From Paenibacillus sp. FSL R7-0273 (lineage in GTDB: Bacteria; Bacillota; Bacilli; Paenibacillales; Paenibacillaceae): 64,000 nucleotides of DNA. Under the pieces are notes generated by a model, which made no database searches, was not told the DNA's origin, and saw nothing but the letters and a program-made list of their open reading frames with translations. The stretch spans positions 3,979,501-4,043,500 of the forward strand of contig NZ_CP009283.1 of the NCBI RefSeq assembly GCF_000758625.1, given 5' to 3'. Of this stretch, positions 18,182-54,348 are shown in pieces (position 1 is the stretch's first letter; each line of letters opens with the position of its first letter). The position numbers were made by a program, and so were the translations under genes.

Positions 18182-18221
18182 AAAAGCGGCAGCCAAGGAT
18201 ATCATTATCCTTGGCTGCCGC
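18182..18221 (-). terminator. Intrinsic terminator of the TerB-ATPase-helicase operon
   Basis: A 16-bp perfect stem (GCGGCAGCCAAGGATA and its complement, 18186-18221) with a TCAT loop, followed on the minus strand by TTTTATTT. It lies 26 bases after the helicase stop and separates this operon from gerA. Confidence 0.93.
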
Positions 18222-18247
18222 CTGTTGGGCCTGCAATCAGCGTTATC

Positions 18248-20446
18248 TTATTCTGCCGGCTTCCATTGCTTCAGAACATTTCTAAGGCCCGGAACATCCA
18301 GCCCGTCCAGGGAAAAGGCCTTGCGCAGCAGATCATGCGGGATGAATTCATCATATTTGCCGAGGTACGGGGCCTCATCCTTGCTGAGCAAGGACAGCGG
18401 GTCGGATGCAGCGGCAGTCTCGGCCAGGATCTCCGCCTCCAGCGTCTCCGCATCCGCCTTGCCGGCTACGACCATGTAATAGGGCTCCATCGGCACAACG
18501 GAGCGCAGGCCGAGCCTGCCCTTGAGGTTGTTCTTCAGCAGACGTTCCAGTGTGCGGAACTGCCTGCTGCCCGCCCAGGGCAGAATAAAGATCGAATCGC
18601 CCCCGGCCGGCAGCACCTCGCGGGTCAGCAGCCCGCTCTCCTTTGCCAGCCGGCGCGCCCGCTCCAGCCTGGCGGCAGCACTTGGCGCAAGGTACGGATA
18701 TATCGCTGTCGAGCCCAGCACTTCACGGATCTTGGTCATGATGCGGGTATGCACATCACCCCCGGCGCCAAGCCATAGGGTGTCTACCTTGCCTCGCGAG
18801 CTTTTGACATAGACCGCCTTATGGCGGTTGTCGACCTCTTCGATCTTCCACAGCTTGCCCGCCAGCGTGAAGCAGTAGCCCGGCGGCGGCACCGTGGTAA
18901 TGGAGCCGATCTCCTCGGTGCCGTTATACACGACATGCTCCTCATCGTCCTTGAACACCGCGTAGAAGCGGAAGTTGTTCACAATCTTCTCGCCGGCCAG
19001 GCCGATCAGCACCGTGCCCTCATCCATCCTCTCGATATGGCCCATCGCGATCATGTATTCCATAAAAGCATCATAGTCCGCCGGATCAATCCCGCGGAAG
19101 GAAGGGAGGGTCAATACCGCCTCCTTCAATTCCTCCGGCTCGGCTTCGCCCATGCTCTTGAGGATGCTCATCGTCTGATGATAGAGCAGACCTACCGGCA
19201 GCTGCCGTACGTTCAGCGGCTCGACCCATTTCTCGCGCACGTACAGCTCGATGACGGCAATGGCCCGCAGCAGCGTCCACGGCATCCGCGCGGGAAGCTG
19301 CGCCTCCTCGTCCTCCTCCTCGGGCGTGACGAAGATCATCTCGGACGCGGCATCGCCGCGCCGTCCGGACCGCCCCAGCCGCTGCACGAAGCTCGCGCAG
19401 CTGTAAGGCGCGCCGAGCTGCAGCACGCGCTCCAGCTCGCCAAGGTCAATGCCCAGCTCCAGCGTCAGCGTCGCTGCGGCAACGGCAGGGCCGGAGCCCT
19501 CGCGGAGCGCGGCCTCCGTCTCCTCGCGCAGCATCGCCGATATGCTGCCGTGGTGCACATGGAACACGTCGCGCTCCCCGCGCTTCGCGGCCACCCGCCG
19601 CATCTCGAGGATGGTCTCCTCCGCATCCGTGCGGCTGTTCGTGAAGACCAGCGCCTTCTTCAGATGCGTATGGTCGTAGATGAACCCGTAATAGGCCTGG
19701 CGCGCCTGCTCCAGCCGCTCGGCCTGCACCTCGTCCCGCGCATCCGGGAACGAGAAATGCTCCACGCTCAGCCGGAGCTTGCGCCCGCCCTGCGGCGCGG
19801 ACACCTCTACGCTCTCGCGCGTGCCGGCGGCCAGCCACTCCGTCACGGAGGCATAGTCGCTGAGCGTAGCGGAGAGCCCGATCCGCCGCGGATGGCAGCC
19901 GGCCATCCGCGAGATCCGCGCCAGCTGGCTGAGCACCTGGATGCCGCGGTCCGCGCCCATAAACGCATGCACTTCATCGACGATGATGAAGCGCAGATCA
20001 TGGAACAGGGCCGGAATGGCATTCGGCCGGTTCATCAGCAGGCCTTCCAGCGACTCCGGAGTAATCTGGAGGACGCCGGAGGGCTTCTGCATCAGCCTGG
20101 TTTTGTCCGCCTGCGGCACGTCGCCGTGCCAGTGCCAGACCGGGATATTGCCTTCGCGCAGCAAATCATTTAACCGTGTGAACTGATCATTAATCAGCGC
20201 CTTGAGCGGCGCGATATAGAGGATGCCCACGGAGTCGGACGGCCGCTCATACAGCTCGGTCAGCGCCGGAAAAAAAGCCGCCTCCGTCTTCCCCGAAGCC
20301 GTTCCGGAGGCGATCAGCAGATGATGCGGCGTGTCGAACAGCACGCGGCAGGCATCCACCTGGGCCTCGCGCAGCGTCTCCCAGCGGTTCTTGTAGATGA
20401 ACTCTTTAATAAAGGGAGCAAGCCTGTAGAACGGGTTGCTGCTCAT
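18248..20446 (-). CDS. DEAD/DEAH-box helicase, Lhr-like; Shango SngC-like / BrxHI-like
   Basis: Superfamily 2 helicase of 732 aa. Motifs in order: GTASGKT (Walker A, residues 48-54), APLKALINDQ (Ia), TPES (129-132), DEVH (157-160), SAT (192-194). The second RecA domain follows with FTNSRTDAEE, HHGS, TLELGIDLGE and QRLGRSGRRG (motif VI). The C-terminal part (about residues 450-732) resembles Lhr-type accessory domains. It overlaps the ATPase gene by 4 bp. With the upstream TerB-type and DUF2791-type genes it has the composition of the Shango defence system; Lhr-like helicases also occur as BrxHI in type 2 BREX. It probably unwinds DNA or RNA using ATP. The central part is unusually GC-rich. 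Confidence 0.9.
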   Translation of the reverse strand: MSSNPFYRLAPFIKEFIYKNRWETLREAQVDACRVLFDTPHHLLIASGTASGKTEAAFFPALTELYERPSDSVGILYIAPLKALINDQFTRLNDLLREGNIPVWHWHGDVPQADKTRLMQKPSGVLQITPESLEGLLMNRPNAIPALFHDLRFIIVDEVHAFMGADRGIQVLSQLARISRMAGCHPRRIGLSATLSDYASVTEWLAAGTRESVEVSAPQGGRKLRLSVEHFSFPDARDEVQAERLEQARQAYYGFIYDHTHLKKALVFTNSRTDAEETILEMRRVAAKRGERDVFHVHHGSISAMLREETEAALREGSGPAVAAATLTLELGIDLGELERVLQLGAPYSCASFVQRLGRSGRRGDAASEMIFVTPEEEDEEAQLPARMPWTLLRAIAVIELYVREKWVEPLNVRQLPVGLLYHQTMSILKSMGEAEPEELKEAVLTLPSFRGIDPADYDAFMEYMIAMGHIERMDEGTVLIGLAGEKIVNNFRFYAVFKDDEEHVVYNGTEEIGSITTVPPPGYCFTLAGKLWKIEEVDNRHKAVYVKSSRGKVDTLWLGAGGDVHTRIMTKIREVLGSTAIYPYLAPSAAARLERARRLAKESGLLTREVLPAGGDSIFILPWAGSRQFRTLERLLKNNLKGRLGLRSVVPMEPYYMVVAGKADAETLEAEILAETAAASDPLSLLSKDEAPYLGKYDEFIPHDLLRKAFSLDGLDVPGLRNVLKQWKPAE

Positions 20447-21762
20447 AGGTCAAACTCCGCCAGCAGGCCGTCCAGCTCATTCTCACCGTCTGCATCCGGT
20501 TTAATCGTCCGCTCCCCGACCAGCTTCTCAAAGGACAGCTCAGGATGCTGGCTCAGCGTGTGCAGCAGATCCATAAAATCACGCACAATTTCGCGCGGGG
20601 TCAGCAGCTCGTCCGCCCCCAGCCGGCCCACTGCTTCCTCCATGAAATGCACCAGCTGCTCCTGGGTCAGTCTTGCCTCATAGCCGTAGTGGAGGGCATG
20701 AATGTCCCGCAGCTTCTGCAGCAGCACCAGAATCTCTTCATGCGAGAGCATCTCCAGCGCAATGATCGGCCCGGTAAAATTATTAAGCCCCGCTGCACCG
20801 TAACGCCCTGCCACCAGCCGGGAACGTAGGGCTTCGTAGCTGAACAGGCCGCGCCGTCCGTCTTCAACGAACTGCGGCGTACCGCCGATGAAGATACCCA
20901 GTCGCTCCGCCTTGCCCTGCATCGTATCATTGAACATGGTCAGCAGCTTCTCATAATTGCTCTGCCGGGAGATGCTGTTAGTGATTTTGTATAGATTCAC
21001 ACCTTCATCAATGAACAGCAGCAATCCTTTGTAACCGATCGCCCCGGTGAACTCCGCCCAGAGCTTCATATAATCGTACCAGTTATCGTCGTCAATAATG
21101 ACACCGACACCCAGCGCCTTGCGCGCCTCTGTCCGGGTAGCGAATTCGCCCCGCAGCCAGCGCAGCGCATCCTGCTTGAGCTCGTCCTCGGCCAGCTTAT
21201 GGCCGTTCCAGTAAGAGGCCAGCACCTTGGCAAAATCAAAGCCGTGCACCAGCCCGCGCATACCGGATGCGACCGTATAAATACGCTGCTCCACTTCCTC
21301 TGCCAGCTGCGGGTCGTCCGGAGTAAGACCCTTCTCCTGCAGCACAGCCTGCTGAAGACCCATAATCCATTTCTGCAGCATGATCTCCAGCGCTCCCCCG
21401 TCCGGACGGGTGCGGGTCGACAAATGGCTCATCAGCTCCCGGTAGGTTGCCAGCCCCTGTCCTTTCGTTCCCACCAGCCTGCGCTCAGGCGACAGGTCGG
21501 CATCGGCGACCACAAAGTCACGGTCCATCGCATAGTTGCGGATAATCTGCAGCAAAAAGCTTTTACCGCTGCCGAACTTGCCGGTAATTAGCTTGAAGGC
21601 AGCGCCGCCGTCTGCGATATTCTCCATATCCCGGAGAATCGCTTCCACCTCTGGCCGTCGTCCTACAGCGATATGCTCCAGTCCGATCCGCGGCACGACT
21701 CCGGCAGTCAGGGAATTGACCAGGGCCGTTGTCATCCGCTTTGGTATTTTTAATTCACCCAT
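20443..21762 (-). CDS. DUF2791 / BrxC-BrxD-type P-loop ATPase; Shango SngB-like
   Basis: 439-aa ATPase. Walker A is GKFGSGKS (residues 61-68) and Walker B LLLFIDE (247-253); between them HLSTRTRPDGG and DNWYDYMKLW fit the DUF2791 pattern. Late arginine residues in REIVRDF may be in the AAA+ arginine-finger/sensor area. It resembles BrxD of BREX but lacks the pglX and pglZ partners. Its stop overlaps the helicase start by 4 bp, and its start follows the TerB-type stop directly (TAAATG), so three subunits are made in stoichiometric fashion. The likely role is ATP-dependent control of the helicase, by analogy with Shango. Confidence 0.85.
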   Translation of the reverse strand: MGELKIPKRMTTALVNSLTAGVVPRIGLEHIAVGRRPEVEAILRDMENIADGGAAFKLITGKFGSGKSFLLQIIRNYAMDRDFVVADADLSPERRLVGTKGQGLATYRELMSHLSTRTRPDGGALEIMLQKWIMGLQQAVLQEKGLTPDDPQLAEEVEQRIYTVASGMRGLVHGFDFAKVLASYWNGHKLAEDELKQDALRWLRGEFATRTEARKALGVGVIIDDDNWYDYMKLWAEFTGAIGYKGLLLFIDEGVNLYKITNSISRQSNYEKLLTMFNDTMQGKAERLGIFIGGTPQFVEDGRRGLFSYEALRSRLVAGRYGAAGLNNFTGPIIALEMLSHEEILVLLQKLRDIHALHYGYEARLTQEQLVHFMEEAVGRLGADELLTPREIVRDFMDLLHTLSQHPELSFEKLVGERTIKPDADGENELDGLLAEFDL

Positions 21763-23466
21763 TTAATCATTCACCTCATTAATTAAATACAGCAGCGGCT
21801 TCCATTCCTCAGCCAGCTCCCCGCCGTCGATCAGCAGGTCACCGAGCAGGTTCACCGCAAGCTCATTGATCTCATCATACAGCAGCTCCGCCATCGTTCC
21901 GGCTGCTGCAGCCATTATCTCAACCTGATCAAGCCCGTTATCCGCAGCCAGGGCCAGCAGCACCTGCCGGTGCAATGGAAGTAATTCTGCGCTTAGCTCC
22001 ACCCATTCTGCAGGAACACCGGCAGATGTCAGTACAGCAGCTTCTTCTTCAGCAGCAGTATTGTCCTCAAGCGGCTGGCCGTAATCCTGTTCCAAGCTTA
22101 TCTTGTCTTCTATTAGAATTTGCTCCTGTTCCACCACCGGCTCCTCATAAGCCTCAACCGTCAACAGGCTGCGGACAACCTCGGAATCACTCTGCAGCTG
22201 CTCCAGCTTCGCCCTGTCGATCACAACCGCCGGCCCCTTGGCCTCCTGCTCCGCTTTGCGGAATTCCCGCTGCAGATATTTGGTGATCAGCTCGTCCATG
22301 TCCGGGTCAATCCTTATATCCTTCAGCCGTCCGCGGAAGCCCGTCAGCTCCCGCAGCTTGTTCTCGGTCAGCCGGAACAGGCGGGTAATCAGGCTGCGCA
22401 GCGGCAGCAGCTTGCTGATCCGTACGACAGGCACAAGTACGGAATAGCCGTAACGTGAGATATCATAAACAGCACTGCGGAACAAATAGCGCTCCCGCAT
22501 GACCGGAGGACCCGGAGGGAATTTTTCAATCAGACGTGCGCCGTGCTTTCTCGCGACATAGGCATCGATTAAGGCTACTACCTGCGGTATGTAGCGTTCA
22601 GCCGCTTCTTTTCCTTCACCGGCATAGAACTTGGACTTGCTGATATCATAATCGGACATCACAGTCAGAACCTCAAAGGTCAGCTGCTCCGGGGCGGAGC
22701 TGAGACAGCGCAGCAGCTCGATTTCCGCCAGATCGCCGGACAGCCCGCGAGTGCGCGCAACAATTAGCGACAGCGGAACATCCAGCTTGTGCACAAAGGA
22801 GAAATCCGCCATCCAGCTGCCGAGATACTGGTCCAGCCGTTTATATTGGGCCCGGTAAGCTTCCCAGATCAGCCCCAGCTGCCGGTAACCGTCACCCGGC
22901 TCTCGCCAGCCGATACCGTTAATCAGCTCATACACATGCAGAAAAATGTAAGACAGATCCGTTTTGGGATAGCGCCCCTGTCTTACTTCATTCCGCCAGT
23001 AGAAGTACCAGCGGCTCTGCTCAGCGGTCATATGGCTGTAGCTAGGCCAGTAGCTTTTGAACGGAACAAGCTTCGCTTCATCTGCAGTCATATCCTCCAG
23101 CTCAGCCGCCCGCAGCACGAATTCGCTCTCCGTCTCCTTCTTGGCGGAGGAAACAGATACCGGAGTGCGCGGTAACGGAGGAGCAGACTTCATCCGTGGC
23201 TCCTTTGCCGGCACATTCCACTCTTTCGGCTGATCCGCCTTCTGCATATAAGGTTCCGCTGGCGCGGACGGACTGCCCTGCTCCAGATCCCACAGCTGCA
23301 GCTGCTGCGGAGCGGCTTCGTCAGGCTGTCTGCTTTTGTCTGTCTTTTTGTTAACCGCGCCGCCGCCCGGGCTGTGTCCGGATTCCCGCGGAGGAACCGC
23401 CATATCCTGTTCTGTACTCTCCCAGACCAGCTCTGAAAAATGCAGGCCCTCCCTGTCTCTCGCCAT
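21763..23466 (-). CDS. TerB-N/TerB-C domain protein; Shango SngA-like
   Basis: 567-aa protein, first gene of the operon. Residues 1-115 are low complexity (Pro, Gln, Glu, Lys). Residues about 130-190 contain FKSYWPSYSHMTAEQSRWYF, YWRNEVRQGRYP and LSYIFLHVYELING, which match the TerB-N module; the acidic C terminus with LLGDLLIDGG and EEWKPLLYLI resembles TerB-C. The start at 23466 (ATG) has GGGGAGA six bases upstream; a GTG five codons before lacks space for a site. TerB-family proteins have been linked to tellurite resistance and stress systems and, in Shango, to phage defence. A sensor or scaffold role is likely by association. Confidence 0.8.
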   Translation of the reverse strand: MARDREGLHFSELVWESTEQDMAVPPRESGHSPGGGAVNKKTDKSRQPDEAAPQQLQLWDLEQGSPSAPAEPYMQKADQPKEWNVPAKEPRMKSAPPLPRTPVSVSSAKKETESEFVLRAAELEDMTADEAKLVPFKSYWPSYSHMTAEQSRWYFYWRNEVRQGRYPKTDLSYIFLHVYELINGIGWREPGDGYRQLGLIWEAYRAQYKRLDQYLGSWMADFSFVHKLDVPLSLIVARTRGLSGDLAEIELLRCLSSAPEQLTFEVLTVMSDYDISKSKFYAGEGKEAAERYIPQVVALIDAYVARKHGARLIEKFPPGPPVMRERYLFRSAVYDISRYGYSVLVPVVRISKLLPLRSLITRLFRLTENKLRELTGFRGRLKDIRIDPDMDELITKYLQREFRKAEQEAKGPAVVIDRAKLEQLQSDSEVVRSLLTVEAYEEPVVEQEQILIEDKISLEQDYGQPLEDNTAAEEEAAVLTSAGVPAEWVELSAELLPLHRQVLLALAADNGLDQVEIMAAAAGTMAELLYDEINELAVNLLGDLLIDGGELAEEWKPLLYLINEVND

Positions 23467-23504
23467 CCGTAATCTCCCCACTCGTCTGCCATAGTAATTT
23501 CAAC

Positions 23505-23513
23505 ATTATATCA
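23505..23513 (-). promoter_or_regulatory. Extended -10 promoter of the TerB-ATPase-helicase operon
   Basis: On the minus strand TGATATAAT, an extended -10 (TGnTATAAT), 38 bases before the chosen TerB-type start. The -35 region is poor. A direct repeat GGTATATG occurs twice about 26 bases apart, the second copy abutting the -10. Confidence 0.55.
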
Positions 23514-23601
23514 TATACCTCGTCTGCCTGATGCAGCATATACCGGCATCCAAACGCTCCAGGGACACAGGTCTATTCGTTTTGTTATGTTTTCATAAAA
23601 A

Positions 23602-23633
23602 AAGACCCTGAGCGCCCTGCACCTCAAGATCTT
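23602..23633 (-). terminator. Intrinsic terminator of the ankyrin-repeat gene
   Basis: On the minus strand AAGATCTTGAG pairs with CTCAGGGTCTT (GU pairs included) around a 10-base loop, followed by TTTTTTT. It lies 17 bases past the ankyrin stop, so the downstream TerB operon needs its own promoter. Confidence 0.8.
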
Positions 23634-23650
23634 ATGATAGGCATTTGCCC

Positions 23651-24706
23651 CTAACGGGCATAATCAGGTTCCGGCATAGAAACGGGCTGAGGATTGGCAA
23701 GTACCCATTGTACCGCGAGCTCGCTTAATCTGGAAGGCTGCTCATTGCCGGCGATATTATGGAAACGTCTGGCGATTGAAGAGGCCTCCTCCAGAAGTCC
23801 AGGTTCTAAAGGTGCTCCTGTGCCCAAGTAACGGACCAGTGCATCCAGCATTTTACGGTAATCGGCATCCCAGTTTCCTCCGCCGTTATTAAGTATTTCA
23901 TAAGACACACGGCCTGTGATTCGGATGACCTCTCCCTGCAGCGTCTGGGCGTGCCCTGAAGCGGGGACAAGTAAATCCCACAGCTCCTGGTGCTGTAGCG
24001 GCCATGCCTCTGCTTTTACCTTAATAAAGGAGGTTCCATCATGTTTGTCCAATCTTGCTACAGGCTCGACATCAAATTGCCGGTACAGCTTCATCAGTGA
24101 ATGTACAGTGTGATCCAGATCCTCCTTATTGTAATTCGCTCTGACGAATTCAAAGTCCTTACCGATCCGGCATACAGATTCCTTCATCTCCGGCGTAATG
24201 GCGGCCCCGGCATCCAGCAGAACCTCCGAGATTTCCGCCATGCGGGTTATGTCGATATTACGGCATTGTAACAATGCTTTGGCAAGAGGTGTGTTTTTCC
24301 GCTTACTTTCCGCATGTACATTCGCGCCGCTGCTTACCAGCTCTCGTACCGCTGTGGTCCGGTAAGCTGCTGCTGCTGCATGCAGCGGGGTCTCATTATG
24401 GTAATCCAGAGCCTCAGCATTAGCGCCTAGTTCAAGCAGCAAGGGTACATTTCCTGACCAGGCTGCAGCCTGGGCATGAAGAGCGGTCCGCTTATAGGTA
24501 TCGGCAGCGTTAATGTCAGCTCCCTGCTTCACAAGCCAGCGGACCATTTCATCCGGAATTTGCCGGAAGCTAAGGGCGGTACCTTTACTGTAGCCCCCGC
24601 GTGCATCCCATTCGCAGCGTTCAAAAACCTCTTTCAGGTCAGAGATATTATTCGTTTTGATCAGCTGGTCAAAATTAGCAGGCAATGTTAATTTCTTTTT
24701 CCCCAT
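23651..24706 (-). CDS. Ankyrin-repeat protein
   Basis: 351-aa soluble protein with at least three ankyrin repeats between residues about 40 and 150 (e.g. KRTALHAQAAAWSGNVPLLL, NETPLHAAAAAY, NTPLAKALLQC), each with the TPLH-type turn. The C-terminal half has no repeats and no family I recognise. Ankyrin proteins act as protein-binding scaffolds, so a partner cannot be guessed. It is transcribed towards the TerB operon, but a terminator stands between them, so it is probably unrelated. No signal peptide. RBS AGAGGAAG precedes the ATG. Confidence 0.86.
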   Translation of the reverse strand: MGKKKLTLPANFDQLIKTNNISDLKEVFERCEWDARGGYSKGTALSFRQIPDEMVRWLVKQGADINAADTYKRTALHAQAAAWSGNVPLLLELGANAEALDYHNETPLHAAAAAYRTTAVRELVSSGANVHAESKRKNTPLAKALLQCRNIDITRMAEISEVLLDAGAAITPEMKESVCRIGKDFEFVRANYNKEDLDHTVHSLMKLYRQFDVEPVARLDKHDGTSFIKVKAEAWPLQHQELWDLLVPASGHAQTLQGEVIRITGRVSYEILNNGGGNWDADYRKMLDALVRYLGTGAPLEPGLLEEASSIARRFHNIAGNEQPSRLSELAVQWVLANPQPVSMPEPDYAR

Positions 24707-31461: not shown

Positions 31462-32694
31462 ATGACTGATTTTGCAGCAAAGCTGAGTAAGTATGCAGAC
31501 CTTGCCGTTGAGGTTGGCGTTAACGTCCAGCCGGGCCAGACTCTGGTTGTGAATGCACCGGTTGCCGGAGCCGAATTTGTACGCCTGATTACTGCCAAAG
31601 CGTATAGCCTGGGAGCAAGTCTGGTTAAAGTGAACTGGAGCGATGAATTTGTTACCCGCCAGCAGTTCGAGCATGCCGCTCCTGAAGTCTTCACCAAAGC
31701 ACCTACCTGGTTCGCCGGTGAAGTAACGGAATTTGCCGAGAACGGTGCAGCCTTCCTGAATGTAATCGCAGAGAACCCGGATGCCCTGAAGGGTATTGAT
31801 CCGGAGCGGATTGCGAACTTCCAGAAGACACGCGGAGCCGCCCTCAAAAAATACCGTGAGCTGCAGATGTCTGACAAGGTCAGCTGGAGCATTGTTGCCA
31901 TCCCGTCGCAGGCCTGGGCAGATAAAGTATTCCCGGATGCACCGGCTGAGGAACGCGTAGATAAGCTTTGGGAGGCTATTTTCCATACGGTACGCCTGGA
32001 TCGCGAAGATCCTGTTGCCGCCTGGCAGGAGCATCTGGACACGCTGGAGCAGAAGGCTGACGTCCTTAACGCCAAGAAATACAAAAGCTTGCATTACATA
32101 GCACCGGGTACCGATCTTACAATTGAGCTGCCGAAAGGCCATCTGTGGGCACAAGGCGACAGTATTAATGCCAAGGGCCATTCCTTTGTTGCCAATATGC
32201 CAACCGAGGAAGTCTTTACAGCACCGCTTAAGACCGGAGTCAACGGAACAGTCAGAGCCACCAAGCCGCTCAGCTACGGCGGTAATATTATCGACGGCTT
32301 CTCCATCACCTTTGAGAACGGCCGTATTATCAGTGTCAGTGCCGAGCAAGGCCAGGATTCACTGGAGTATCTGATTGGTCTCGACGAAGGCGCCAAGTAT
32401 CTGGGTGAGGTTGCACTCGTGCCGCACAAGTCACCTATTTCCGAATCGAACATCCTGTACTTCAACACCCTGTTTGATGAAAATGCCTCCAACCACCTTG
32501 CGATCGGTACAGCTTATGCCTTCTGTCTGGAAGGCGGTAAAGAAATGACCGAGGATGAGCTGGTTTCAAACGGCCTTAACACCAGTGTGACCCATGTTGA
32601 CTTCATGATCGGCTCGTCTGAGATGGACATCTACGGAATCAATGAAGACGGTTCACAGGAGCCTGTTTTCCTGCAGGGAAACTGGGCATTTTAA
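31462..32694 (+). CDS. M29-family aminopeptidase (AmpS/PepS type)
   Basis: 410-aa cobalt/zinc aminopeptidase of the M29 family (like AmpS and thermophilic aminopeptidase T), which removes N-terminal residues from peptides in the cytoplasm. The metal-ligand regions are recognisable: NMPTEEVFTAP, EVALVPHKSPISESN, and a C-terminal NTSVTHVDFMIGSSEMDIYG that supplies H and D ligands. Full family length. The ATG at 31462 has GGAGGAAA upstream. A second gene of the same family follows after 33 bases, so the two are a tandem duplication and probably one transcript. Peptide salvage is the likely job. Confidence 0.93.
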   Translation: MTDFAAKLSKYADLAVEVGVNVQPGQTLVVNAPVAGAEFVRLITAKAYSLGASLVKVNWSDEFVTRQQFEHAAPEVFTKAPTWFAGEVTEFAENGAAFLNVIAENPDALKGIDPERIANFQKTRGAALKKYRELQMSDKVSWSIVAIPSQAWADKVFPDAPAEERVDKLWEAIFHTVRLDREDPVAAWQEHLDTLEQKADVLNAKKYKSLHYIAPGTDLTIELPKGHLWAQGDSINAKGHSFVANMPTEEVFTAPLKTGVNGTVRATKPLSYGGNIIDGFSITFENGRIISVSAEQGQDSLEYLIGLDEGAKYLGEVALVPHKSPISESNILYFNTLFDENASNHLAIGTAYAFCLEGGKEMTEDELVSNGLNTSVTHVDFMIGSSEMDIYGINEDGSQEPVFLQGNWAF

Positions 32695-32727
32695 ACTAAA
32701 CAGAGACATTTGAGGGGAGCTGGACCA

Positions 32728-33957
32728 ATGCTGGATTTCAAGCAAAAGCTGGATAACTACGCACTGCTTGCAGTAAAAATCGGAGTCAACGTCCAACAGG
32801 GCCAAACCTTGGTTATCAATGCAGATATCGAGTCTGCAGAGCTGGTGCGTCTGATTGTACGTCAGGCCTATGAAGCAGGAGCTAAGCAGGTCAAAGTGAA
32901 TTACAGCGATGAGCTGGTAACACGGGCACGATATGAGCTTGCCCCGGCCGAAAGCTTTCTGGAGCCGCCTAAGTGGCATGCGGATGAATTGGAGGATTTG
33001 GGTAAAAAGGGTGCGGCTTTCCTGAACGTAGTATCCACTAACCCGGATCTGCTGAATGGCATTGAAGCCAGCCGGATTGCCGATAATCAGCGTACAGCCG
33101 GTACAGCTATGGCTGCATACCGTGAAATGCTGATGTCCAATCAGATCAGCTGGAGCATCGTAGCCTACCCGTCGCCTTCCTGGGCGGCGAAGGTGTTCCC
33201 GGATGCCGCACCTGAAGAACAGGTTGGACTGCTGTGGGATGCAATCTTTAAGGCGGTCCGCGCCGATCAGGAGAACCCGGTTGAAGCCTGGAGCCGGCAC
33301 CTTGGCGGCTTGAAGCAGCGCTGTGATATCCTGAATGAGCGGAAATACCGCAAGCTGCATTACACGGCTCCCGGCACTGATCTTACTCTTGAGCTGCCGG
33401 AAGGACATATCTGGTGTCAGGCCGGTGCGGTTAACGGCCGCGGCGTGCCGTTTCTCGCCAACATTCCGACTGAAGAGGTATTTACAGCACCGCTCAAGAC
33501 CGGTGCGAACGGTACCGTCAGCAGCACCAAGCCGCTAAGCTACGGCGGTAATATTATTGACCGCTTTACTTTAACCCTTGAGAACGGAAAAGTAACCGAC
33601 TTCACGGCAGAGGTAGGCTATGAAGCGCTGGCTTCCCTGCTGGCTATGGATGAAGGTGCGGCATACTTCGGTGAAGTTGCCCTGGTTCCTTACCACTCCC
33701 CGATCTCCGAGAGCGGCATTCTATACTTTACCACCCTGTATGACGAGAATGCTTCATGCCACCTGGCATTGGGAGCGGCTTACGCCTTCACGCTTCAGGA
33801 TGGTATTCATATGACCAAGGATCAGCTTGCTGAGCATGGAATGAACCACAGCCTTACTCATGTGGACTTTATGATGGGTTCACCTGAGATGAACATTGAC
33901 GGTATTACTGATGACGGCAAGTCAGAGCCAATCTTCCGCTCCGGAAACTGGGCATAG
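32728..33957 (+). CDS. M29-family aminopeptidase, tandem paralogue
   Basis: 409-aa second copy of the M29 aminopeptidase. The same ligand regions occur (NIPTEEVFTAP, EVALVPYHSPISESG, HSLTHVDFMMGSPEMNIDGI). Overall the two copies look clearly homologous with many substitutions, so the duplication is old. Start at 32728 because AGGGGAG lies before it; the frame opens six codons earlier at a TTG. Loss of HK in VPHKSP (here VPYHSP) next to the Glu ligand may change substrate preference. A terminator closes the pair. Confidence 0.93.
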   Translation: MLDFKQKLDNYALLAVKIGVNVQQGQTLVINADIESAELVRLIVRQAYEAGAKQVKVNYSDELVTRARYELAPAESFLEPPKWHADELEDLGKKGAAFLNVVSTNPDLLNGIEASRIADNQRTAGTAMAAYREMLMSNQISWSIVAYPSPSWAAKVFPDAAPEEQVGLLWDAIFKAVRADQENPVEAWSRHLGGLKQRCDILNERKYRKLHYTAPGTDLTLELPEGHIWCQAGAVNGRGVPFLANIPTEEVFTAPLKTGANGTVSSTKPLSYGGNIIDRFTLTLENGKVTDFTAEVGYEALASLLAMDEGAAYFGEVALVPYHSPISESGILYFTTLYDENASCHLALGAAYAFTLQDGIHMTKDQLAEHGMNHSLTHVDFMMGSPEMNIDGITDDGKSEPIFRSGNWA

Positions 33958-48602: not shown

Positions 48603-48685
48603 GACAAAAAACCCCTCTCTTTTCCCCCGGCTTGCTGCCGGAATAGGAAAGAAGAACGAGATTTCGAAAACTTGGCTCTACTAAA

Positions 48686-48718
48686 TAGTTTTTTATAGAG
48701 GGAGTTTGCGAACCTCTC
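48686..48718 (-). promoter_or_regulatory. preQ1-I riboswitch aptamer
   Basis: On the minus strand AGAGGTTCGCAAACT is followed by CCCTCTATAAAAAACTA, the class I preQ1 aptamer: P1 (AGAGG/CCTCT), loop with GTTC, and the A-rich tail that closes the pseudoknot. It lies in the queF leader, so preQ1 feeds back on the operon that makes it. The 84 bases up to queF contain CCGGC...GCCGG and an AGAGGGG that could pair with CCCTCT, probably the expression platform. Confidence 0.93.
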
Positions 48719-48734
48719 CTGTGCAGCTGCACAG
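48719..48734. repeat. 16-bp perfect palindrome before the preQ1 aptamer
   Basis: CTGTGCAGCTGCACAG equals its reverse complement and abuts the 5' end of the aptamer. It would form a stable 5' hairpin in the leader RNA. Confidence 0.6.
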
Positions 48735-54166: not shown

Positions 54167-54180
54167 GGCATGGTCATTAT

Positions 54181-54312
54181 CCCACCTTTGCTTACGAGGT
54201 TAGCTGGCGGATTCGGGCTGTGGAAAGCCCTACGGCTGCAGGCTTTTGAGCCTGCTTCCGATTCACCCCGTCGGCCTTGCGGCCAAGTATGGTTCCCCCG
54301 ATTTCCCTGCGG
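54181..54312 (-). promoter_or_regulatory. ydaO-yuaA c-di-AMP riboswitch
   Basis: On the minus strand the conserved blocks appear in order: CGGGGGAACC (plus 54291-54300), GACGGGGTGAATC, a central variable hairpin (GCAGGCTCAAAAGCCTGC), AGCCCGAATCCG, CAGCTAACCTCGTAAGC, and AAAGGTGGG. This is the ydaO-type pattern that senses c-di-AMP. A short open frame on the opposite strand across this region is an artefact. Confidence 0.92.
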
Positions 54313-54348
54313 AAAATTCAGCGCATATTCAACTTCTCACAAGGCTTA

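Follow-up and report, generated by a model that had tools for sequence, protein, structure and literature searches.

The 64-kb window analysed here (64,000 nucleotides of the soil bacterium Paenibacillus sp. FSL R7-0273, contig NZ_CP009283.1, forward-strand positions 3,979,501 to 4,043,500) carries a chromosomal Shango operon that is present throughout the genus, where it is probably kept as a transcription unit for resident immunity against invaders; phage defence by this lineage is putative. The three genes, all on the minus strand, are sngA (21763..23466; 567 amino acids from an ATG at 23466), sngB (20443..21762; 439 amino acids) and sngC (18248..20446; 732 amino acids). An initial annotation, made from the DNA letters, had described 18248..23466 as one three-gene unit joined by TAAATG and by a 4-bp overlap, and the open reading frames (ORFs), the TAAATG junction between sngA and sngB and the 4-bp ATGA start/stop overlap of sngB and sngC (20443..20446, minus strand) bear this out. 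The overlap is -4 in all 38 regions in which both ORFs were picked. A GTG at 23481 is an alternative sngA start that gives a 572-amino-acid ORF; the database protein P0001 is 100% identical to the window SngA and is 567 amino acids long.

By operational models the operon is Shango. Adjacent sngA, sngB and sngC match all three PADLOC models, with 360, 681 and 802 bits, respectively, and the next-best PADLOC families are BrxD for SngB (162 bits) and BrxHI for SngC (415 bits). The Shango composition first proposed is thus upheld by the profile search that had been suggested for it. A Shango operon on an E. coli plasmid scores 349, 618 and 936 bits with the same models; given this resemblance, the window operon is no marginal member, and the earlier wording 'distant member' was too weak. 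Pfam finds TerB_N (117 bits, residues 107-308) and TerB_C (47 bits, residues 401-551) in SngA. SngB is a BrxC/BrxD-family ATPase (BrxC_BrxD, PF10923, 547 bits) with Walker A at residue 61, Walker B at residue 247 and a C-terminal LAEFDL-COOH, and SngC is an SF2 DEXH helicase related to BrxHI and Lhr (DEAD 88 bits, Helicase_C 56 bits and a sub-threshold WH_Lhr match of 20 bits), so that the BrxD-like P-loop ATPase and the helicase of the initial annotation are both confirmed. Their catalytic motifs, which had looked intact in this one copy, are invariant in 39/39 aligned genomes (GxxGSGKS and DE in SngB; GTASGKTEA, DEVH, SAT and QRxGRSGRR in SngC), while adjoining positions vary. Some database names (P0121, P0135 and others) label SngB 'biotin carboxylase', probably a misannotation.

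The homology of SngB and SngC to BrxD and BrxHI could also mean that the operon is a remnant or variant of type 2 BREX, a BrxD-BrxHI dyad with the rest lost, but this reading is already contradicted and almost certainly wrong. SngB reaches 168 bits against a curated BrxD cut-off of 350 bits, which no genome among 388 of the family attains. PF10923 has a single match in the window's own genome, SngB itself, which leaves no BrxC; PglX, PglZ and PglW are absent from the 19 proteins of the window that were scanned; and SngB and SngC cluster with Shango loci, apart from two BrxD-like loci that root their tree. The early judgement that this is not BREX therefore stands.

The window operon departs from other Shango loci in its SngA. 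The description of SngA as a 'TerB protein' was right for the two wings, TerB_N and TerB_C, which occur in 41/41 Paenibacillaceae SngA proteins, and wrong for the TerB core (PF05099), which has no match in the window SngA or in any of the 41 at E values up to 1. A profile-profile comparison likewise aligns the two wings only. The core is descriptive of Shango and is not required by the PADLOC model; because it is missing, we file the operon as a Shango variant. In precomputed Pfam assignments it is absent from 120/120 close database relatives and present in 114/120 relatives of the Methylibium SngA, and it lies between the wings in plasmid SngA proteins of E. coli, Arthrobacter and Phaeobacter, with a Natrinema match just under the cut-off. 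A membrane-like segment within the N-terminal 80 residues, called by a hydropathy threshold rather than a topology predictor, follows a similar pattern: it was found in 0/41 Paenibacillaceae proteins, 0/120 close relatives, 101/120 distant relatives (some of which may lie outside Shango operons) and 5/7 plasmid proteins. It also occurs in one of eight other Bacillota loci of the Bacillota-type group defined below (L228) and in 5/5 loci of a deeper Bacillota lineage, three of which were scanned for the TerB core and lack it. Anchor loss is thus not uniform within the Bacillota-type group. The variant shows that a Shango can be maintained without the TerB core and without a membrane anchor.

The N-terminal tail of SngA is disordered and carries an FSELVWE...PPR peptide and a QLQLW motif; the AlphaFold2 model has a mean pLDDT of 64.7 and is confident mainly at about 111-240 and 481-560. 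In three g33 genomes and in one Paenibacillus clade (L079-L081, L058, L059 and L067), about 400-900 residues precede TerB_N, and this long region has no Pfam match above cut-off in L081 and L058. Ter modules have been linked to stress and the TerB core is the part tied to tellurite. With its TerB_N and TerB_C domains the operon might accordingly be read as a Ter-like metal or oxidative stress operon rather than as immunity, which is very unlikely, as the core is absent from all 41 SngA proteins and SngA is partnered by a helicase and an ATPase.

The initial annotation had suggested a resident Paenibacillus version, and all three proteins were indeed found in 100/100 genomes of the genus. SngB, already present in 37/37 genus genomes versus 0/23 from other families of the order, gives a single match in 95 of the 100 and two or three matches in five; in at least four of these five (G009, G034, G020 and G023) the matches are pieces of one gene, and G098 likewise has split or double matches. 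We set aside decay as the reason for the broken sngB of G034 and G009, since both assemblies have split genes elsewhere (gyrB and recG in G034, a second gyrB-family gene in G009), which makes assembly error likelier. Because the SngC model also matches 13/14 control genomes, only strong SngC scores count; 98 of the 100 genomes exceed 750 bits, and the two that do not, G024 and G025, are fragmented draft assemblies. For comparison, 32 of these 100 genomes have a type I restriction subunit HsdR above the cut-off, and 46 have one at E values up to 0.001.

Outside the genus the picture is different. SngB matches occur in 221/394 genomes of the family (219 strong) and strong ones in 119/294 outside Paenibacillus, with no genome of genus g18 among the matches; in the phylum outside the family, strong matches fall to 13/342 genomes, one of them split. 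Among 72,556 plasmid records, 692 have an SngB match, mostly from Klebsiella (449) and Salmonella (144), and 542 are predicted to be conjugative. These plasmid and genome surveys indicate that Shango is largely mobile elsewhere and resident in Paenibacillus. One member of the genus, P. cellulositrophicus, has its Shango on an 897-kb replicon that is registered as a plasmid. No SngB was found in phage records or in viral contigs, where three pattern matches included no relative. In 80 named loci examined with 3-kb flanks, SngA was found in 78 and SngC in 78, the two lacking SngC being contig ends.

To follow its inheritance we used 39 genomes, 27 of them of the genus, for trees, identities and dN/dS values, leaving out G034 and G009 with their broken genes from the 41 available. 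The combined SngB and SngC tree rejects monophyly of the genus (log-likelihood difference 598, approximately unbiased (AU) test p about 2e-59, from a fast search with 5000 replicates, which the program warns are few), whereas gyrB and recG accept it (AU p 0.27) and are in no strong conflict with each other. We therefore conclude that the operon has been exchanged between genera. As it has been exchanged and yet is absent from no genus genome searched, we infer strong selection to hold a Shango. The window clade itself is monophyletic in the SngB and SngC tree. The G+C content of all three genes follows the host, with sngC averaging 3 points above recG; in the window genome sngC has 63%, gyrB 51% and recG 55%.

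A rooted SngB and SngC tree of 47 loci, with the two BrxD-like loci as root, resolves three groups. The Bacillota-type group (support 0.71) holds the Paenibacillaceae genome copies (0.91), with a Paenibacillus peoriae plasmid copy as sister. The second group (1.0) unites E. coli, Salmonella, Arthrobacter, Natrinema and Phaeobacter with Methylibium, which lacks a TerB core, and the third (1.0) is the deeper Bacillota lineage. The five loci of this third, Shango-like lineage (L218-L221 and L233) have a membrane-like or TM2 segment on SngA and an SngB that ends in an RFQR or RFKK type, and three of the five carriers (G289, G292 and G295) belong to the window's own family. In the second group, the genes behind the Phaeobacter Shango (L187) are a DUF4297 anti-phage-associated gene, an ATPase and a DNA repair exonuclease, and those behind the Natrinema Shango (L186) are a metallophosphoesterase and an SMC-family ATPase. 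On a Burkholderia contaminans plasmid (L185) about 5 kb separate the end of an upstream TerB_N gene from sngB-sngC, which it does not adjoin.

The three proteins change at very different rates. Median identity within the genus (27 genomes) is 0.41 for SngA and 0.78 for both SngB and SngC, compared with 0.89 for GyrB and 0.815 for RecG, and SngA distances, linkers included, grow about 6.8 times as fast as those of GyrB. Values of dN/dS, taken from 11 pairs chosen by hand (10 for SngA and SngC, for which one was saturated; several with dS above 1), range over 0.136-0.244 for SngA, 0.023-0.059 for SngB and 0.014-0.055 for SngC, with references of 0.017-0.043 for gyrB and 0.017-0.047 for recG. SngB and SngC are thus under strong purifying selection, and SngA is the fast-changing part, as would be expected of a recognition subunit. 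Inside SngA, within-genus identity is 0.485 for TerB_N and 0.289 for the N-terminal linker.

This constraint on SngB and SngC, close to that on recG, together with presence in every genus genome where hsdR passes its cut-off in about a third, would also suit a domesticated housekeeping machine, an ATPase-helicase complex kept for chromosome maintenance (fork restart, R-loop removal or DNA repair) rather than against phage. None of the 19 scanned window proteins looks mobile, and a Q[LI]xLW motif, which no other ORF in the regions contains, stands in the SngA linker of all 17 genomes of the window clade. We take this motif to resemble a sliding-clamp motif, and a clamp reading of it is no more than a lead, with no clear equivalent in other clades. 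Housekeeping is nevertheless unlikely, if to be taken seriously: SngA diverges far faster than GyrB, the operon has moved between genera, strong SngB matches are patchy in the rest of the family and missing from g18, and relatives elsewhere are anti-phage (PMC10250203, excerpt). The initial annotation had counted genus-wide co-conservation with a housekeeping phenotype against a defence role; half of this is borne out, the co-conservation in all 100 genus genomes searched.

The C-terminal peptide of SngB offers a concrete and cheap handle on the Shango mechanism. The SngB C-terminus reads LAEF[D/E]L or nearly so in 41/41 Paenibacillaceae proteins and in 118 of 120 proteins, versus 1/515 other mechanically called ORFs; two of 120 proteins that had no definable tail were dropped ahead of one of the tail counts. 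The linker before this near-invariant tail varies, and SngB measures 439-451 amino acids in the intact Paenibacillus copies examined versus 516-687 in the three g33 genomes. By eye, LAxFx[LV]-type ends were also recognized in 8/8 plasmid Shango loci, from bacteria and one haloarchaeon, and SngB-type tails in 9/9 loci of other Bacillota that belong to the two main lineages, as against 0/5 in the third lineage and 0/2 BrxD-like proteins. We gave up the idea of a link between the SngB tail and the presence of SngA, as the five third-lineage loci have SngA and yet a different tail.

A loosely similar peptide occurs in the SngA N-terminal tail of 39/41 Paenibacillaceae (1.9 expected), by a pattern defined after the sequences had been read. 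The strict SngB-tail pattern is found in 3/41 (0.8 expected), in 0/120 close and 0/120 distant relatives, in 2/7 plasmid proteins and in 1/8 other Bacillota. Examples of SngA/SngB pairs are NLATFTL / GLANFKL in E. coli and LAEFTL / YAEFTL in locus L222. Two subunits might thus dock on one kind of site through a shared peptide, but because the strict pattern fails in most SngA proteins this is a lead only.

If the operon is resident anti-invader immunity, as we favour, the following mechanism can be proposed from homology. SngB, an ORC/Cdc6-like AAA+ ATPase by its homology with BrxD, would assemble on invading DNA and load or activate SngC, an Lhr-related helicase that by analogy may run 3'-5'. 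SngA would serve as targeting scaffold and as the part that recognizes the invader, and the short tail peptides would contribute to holding it to its partners. The most likely outcome would be that helicase translocation disrupts phage replication intermediates, or that these are handed over to host nucleases; since the operon encodes no nuclease, cutting by the complex itself is not expected. The absence of the membrane-like anchor and of the TerB core suggests a cytosolic trigger independent of that core. BrxD is classed as ORC/Cdc6-type and forms a dyad with BrxHI, which it possibly loads (PMC12839542, an excerpt silent on Shango), and SngC, BrxHI, DruE and DpdJ have been placed in a potentially distinct clade of immune helicases (PMC12278908, excerpt). 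Shango of P. aeruginosa PA14 gives a modest 10-100-fold protection against many but not all phages tested (PMC10250203, excerpt). The open-licence literature matches listed, as titles and abstract starts, contain nothing on a Paenibacillus Shango or on Shango as a core system.

Several points weigh against resident immunity. No phenotype was found for any Paenibacillus Shango. A defence system would not usually be universal or sit among metabolic genes. A review table gives the TerB core for Shango (PMC10952713, excerpt), and the window SngA is without it. The structure models are of low confidence: for neither SngA nor SngB does Foldseek return a PDB match under E 0.001, the best matches for SngB include BrxC at E 0.007, and profile searches for solved relatives return none below E 0.03 for SngA and none at E 0.1 for SngB. 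The strict SngB peptide form is rare in SngA.

Because the operon is universal and yet exchanged between genera and loci, it could instead be an obligatory machine between immunity and chromosome maintenance that every species has to possess, importing the copy of a relative when its own is lost or fails. It would act at replication forks by way of docking peptides in the protein tails (the LAEFEL-type end of SngB, the looser counterpart in SngA and the clamp-like Q[LI]xLW in SngA of the window clade). We regard this as speculative and quite unlikely. Defence systems are thought to come and go, and presence in 100/100 genomes combined with exchange between genera offers a natural test of obligatory immunity.

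In the gene-order comparison that had been proposed at the outset, SngA, SngB and SngC were all found in 40 fetched regions and the window (in three regions the ORF picker took antisense ORFs, and sngC was recovered by BLAST). Neighbours are common within the window clade, an MFS gene in 17/17 and a DUF1836 gene in 16/17 regions, and differ in other clades. A search for the empty site by DUF1836 in 12 genomes of other clades gave three distant homologues at 38-39% identity. In the window, spore germination genes lie downstream of sngC, and an ankyrin gene, an MFS transporter and a DUF1836 protein upstream of sngA. The ankyrin-repeat gene (23651-24706), directly upstream of sngA, has a weak PADLOC match (PDC-M72A, 43.5 bits) and belongs to no family common to at least three of the other 40 regions.

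A strong terminator follows sngC (18184..18223, minus strand; 18-pair stem, -34.1 kcal/mol, T-rich tail). Between the ankyrin gene and sngA, a hairpin with a T run (23596..23640, minus strand; -15.7 kcal/mol, z -3.4), picked by eye and not among the features listed by the scan, is a possible terminator. An extended -10 like site, TGATATAAT (23505..23513, minus strand), lies about 40 bp before the sngA start; it was likewise picked by eye and is absent from the consensus promoter scan, whose 3 hits compare with 2.6 by chance and so show no excess. In the 420 bp ahead of the sngA ORF, GAACN4GTTC, which we take to be the SOS control pattern, is present in 7/41 regions, and a longer form with at most one mismatch in five. 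The window is not among the seven, so SOS control of its operon is unsupported, though such control may act elsewhere. Elsewhere in the window are a c-di-AMP riboswitch (54174-54333, 76.8 bits) before an amino acid permease gene, a PreQ1 riboswitch (48679-48722, 45 bits) and two tandem M29 metallopeptidase genes (31462-33957), both strong matches.

Among known systems, Hachiman (HamAB) differs from the window operon in its HamA nuclease effector, which has no counterpart here, and resembles it as an immune machine built on an SF2 helicase (PMC12278908, excerpt). Type 2 BREX shares a homologous ATPase and helicase encoded side by side as the BrxD-BrxHI dyad; unlike it, the window operon has an SngB far under the BrxD cut-off and no BREX gene seen beside it, and the two BrxD-like proteins read lack the SngB-type tail. 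The P. peoriae plasmid Shango (NZ_CP011513, L180), sister to the Paenibacillaceae genome copies, also has no TerB core match and ends SngB in FADFEL, but is plasmid-borne, with 66% SngB identity and a 1052-amino-acid SngA. On that plasmid a dnaN gene ends about 6 kb before Shango. With Shango of E. coli and PA14, compared through the E. coli plasmid copy rather than the experimentally tested one and, for PA14, through the literature only, the window operon has in common the order of its genes, the three components, SngB and SngC matches over the full length, and tight coupling. The E. coli plasmid copy also has the LAxFxL-type SngB C-terminus, while its SngA carries the membrane-like N-terminal segment and the TerB core that the window SngA lacks. 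Published Shango copies lie in defence hotspots or islands (PMC10250203, excerpt), whereas the Paenibacillus operon is genus-wide.

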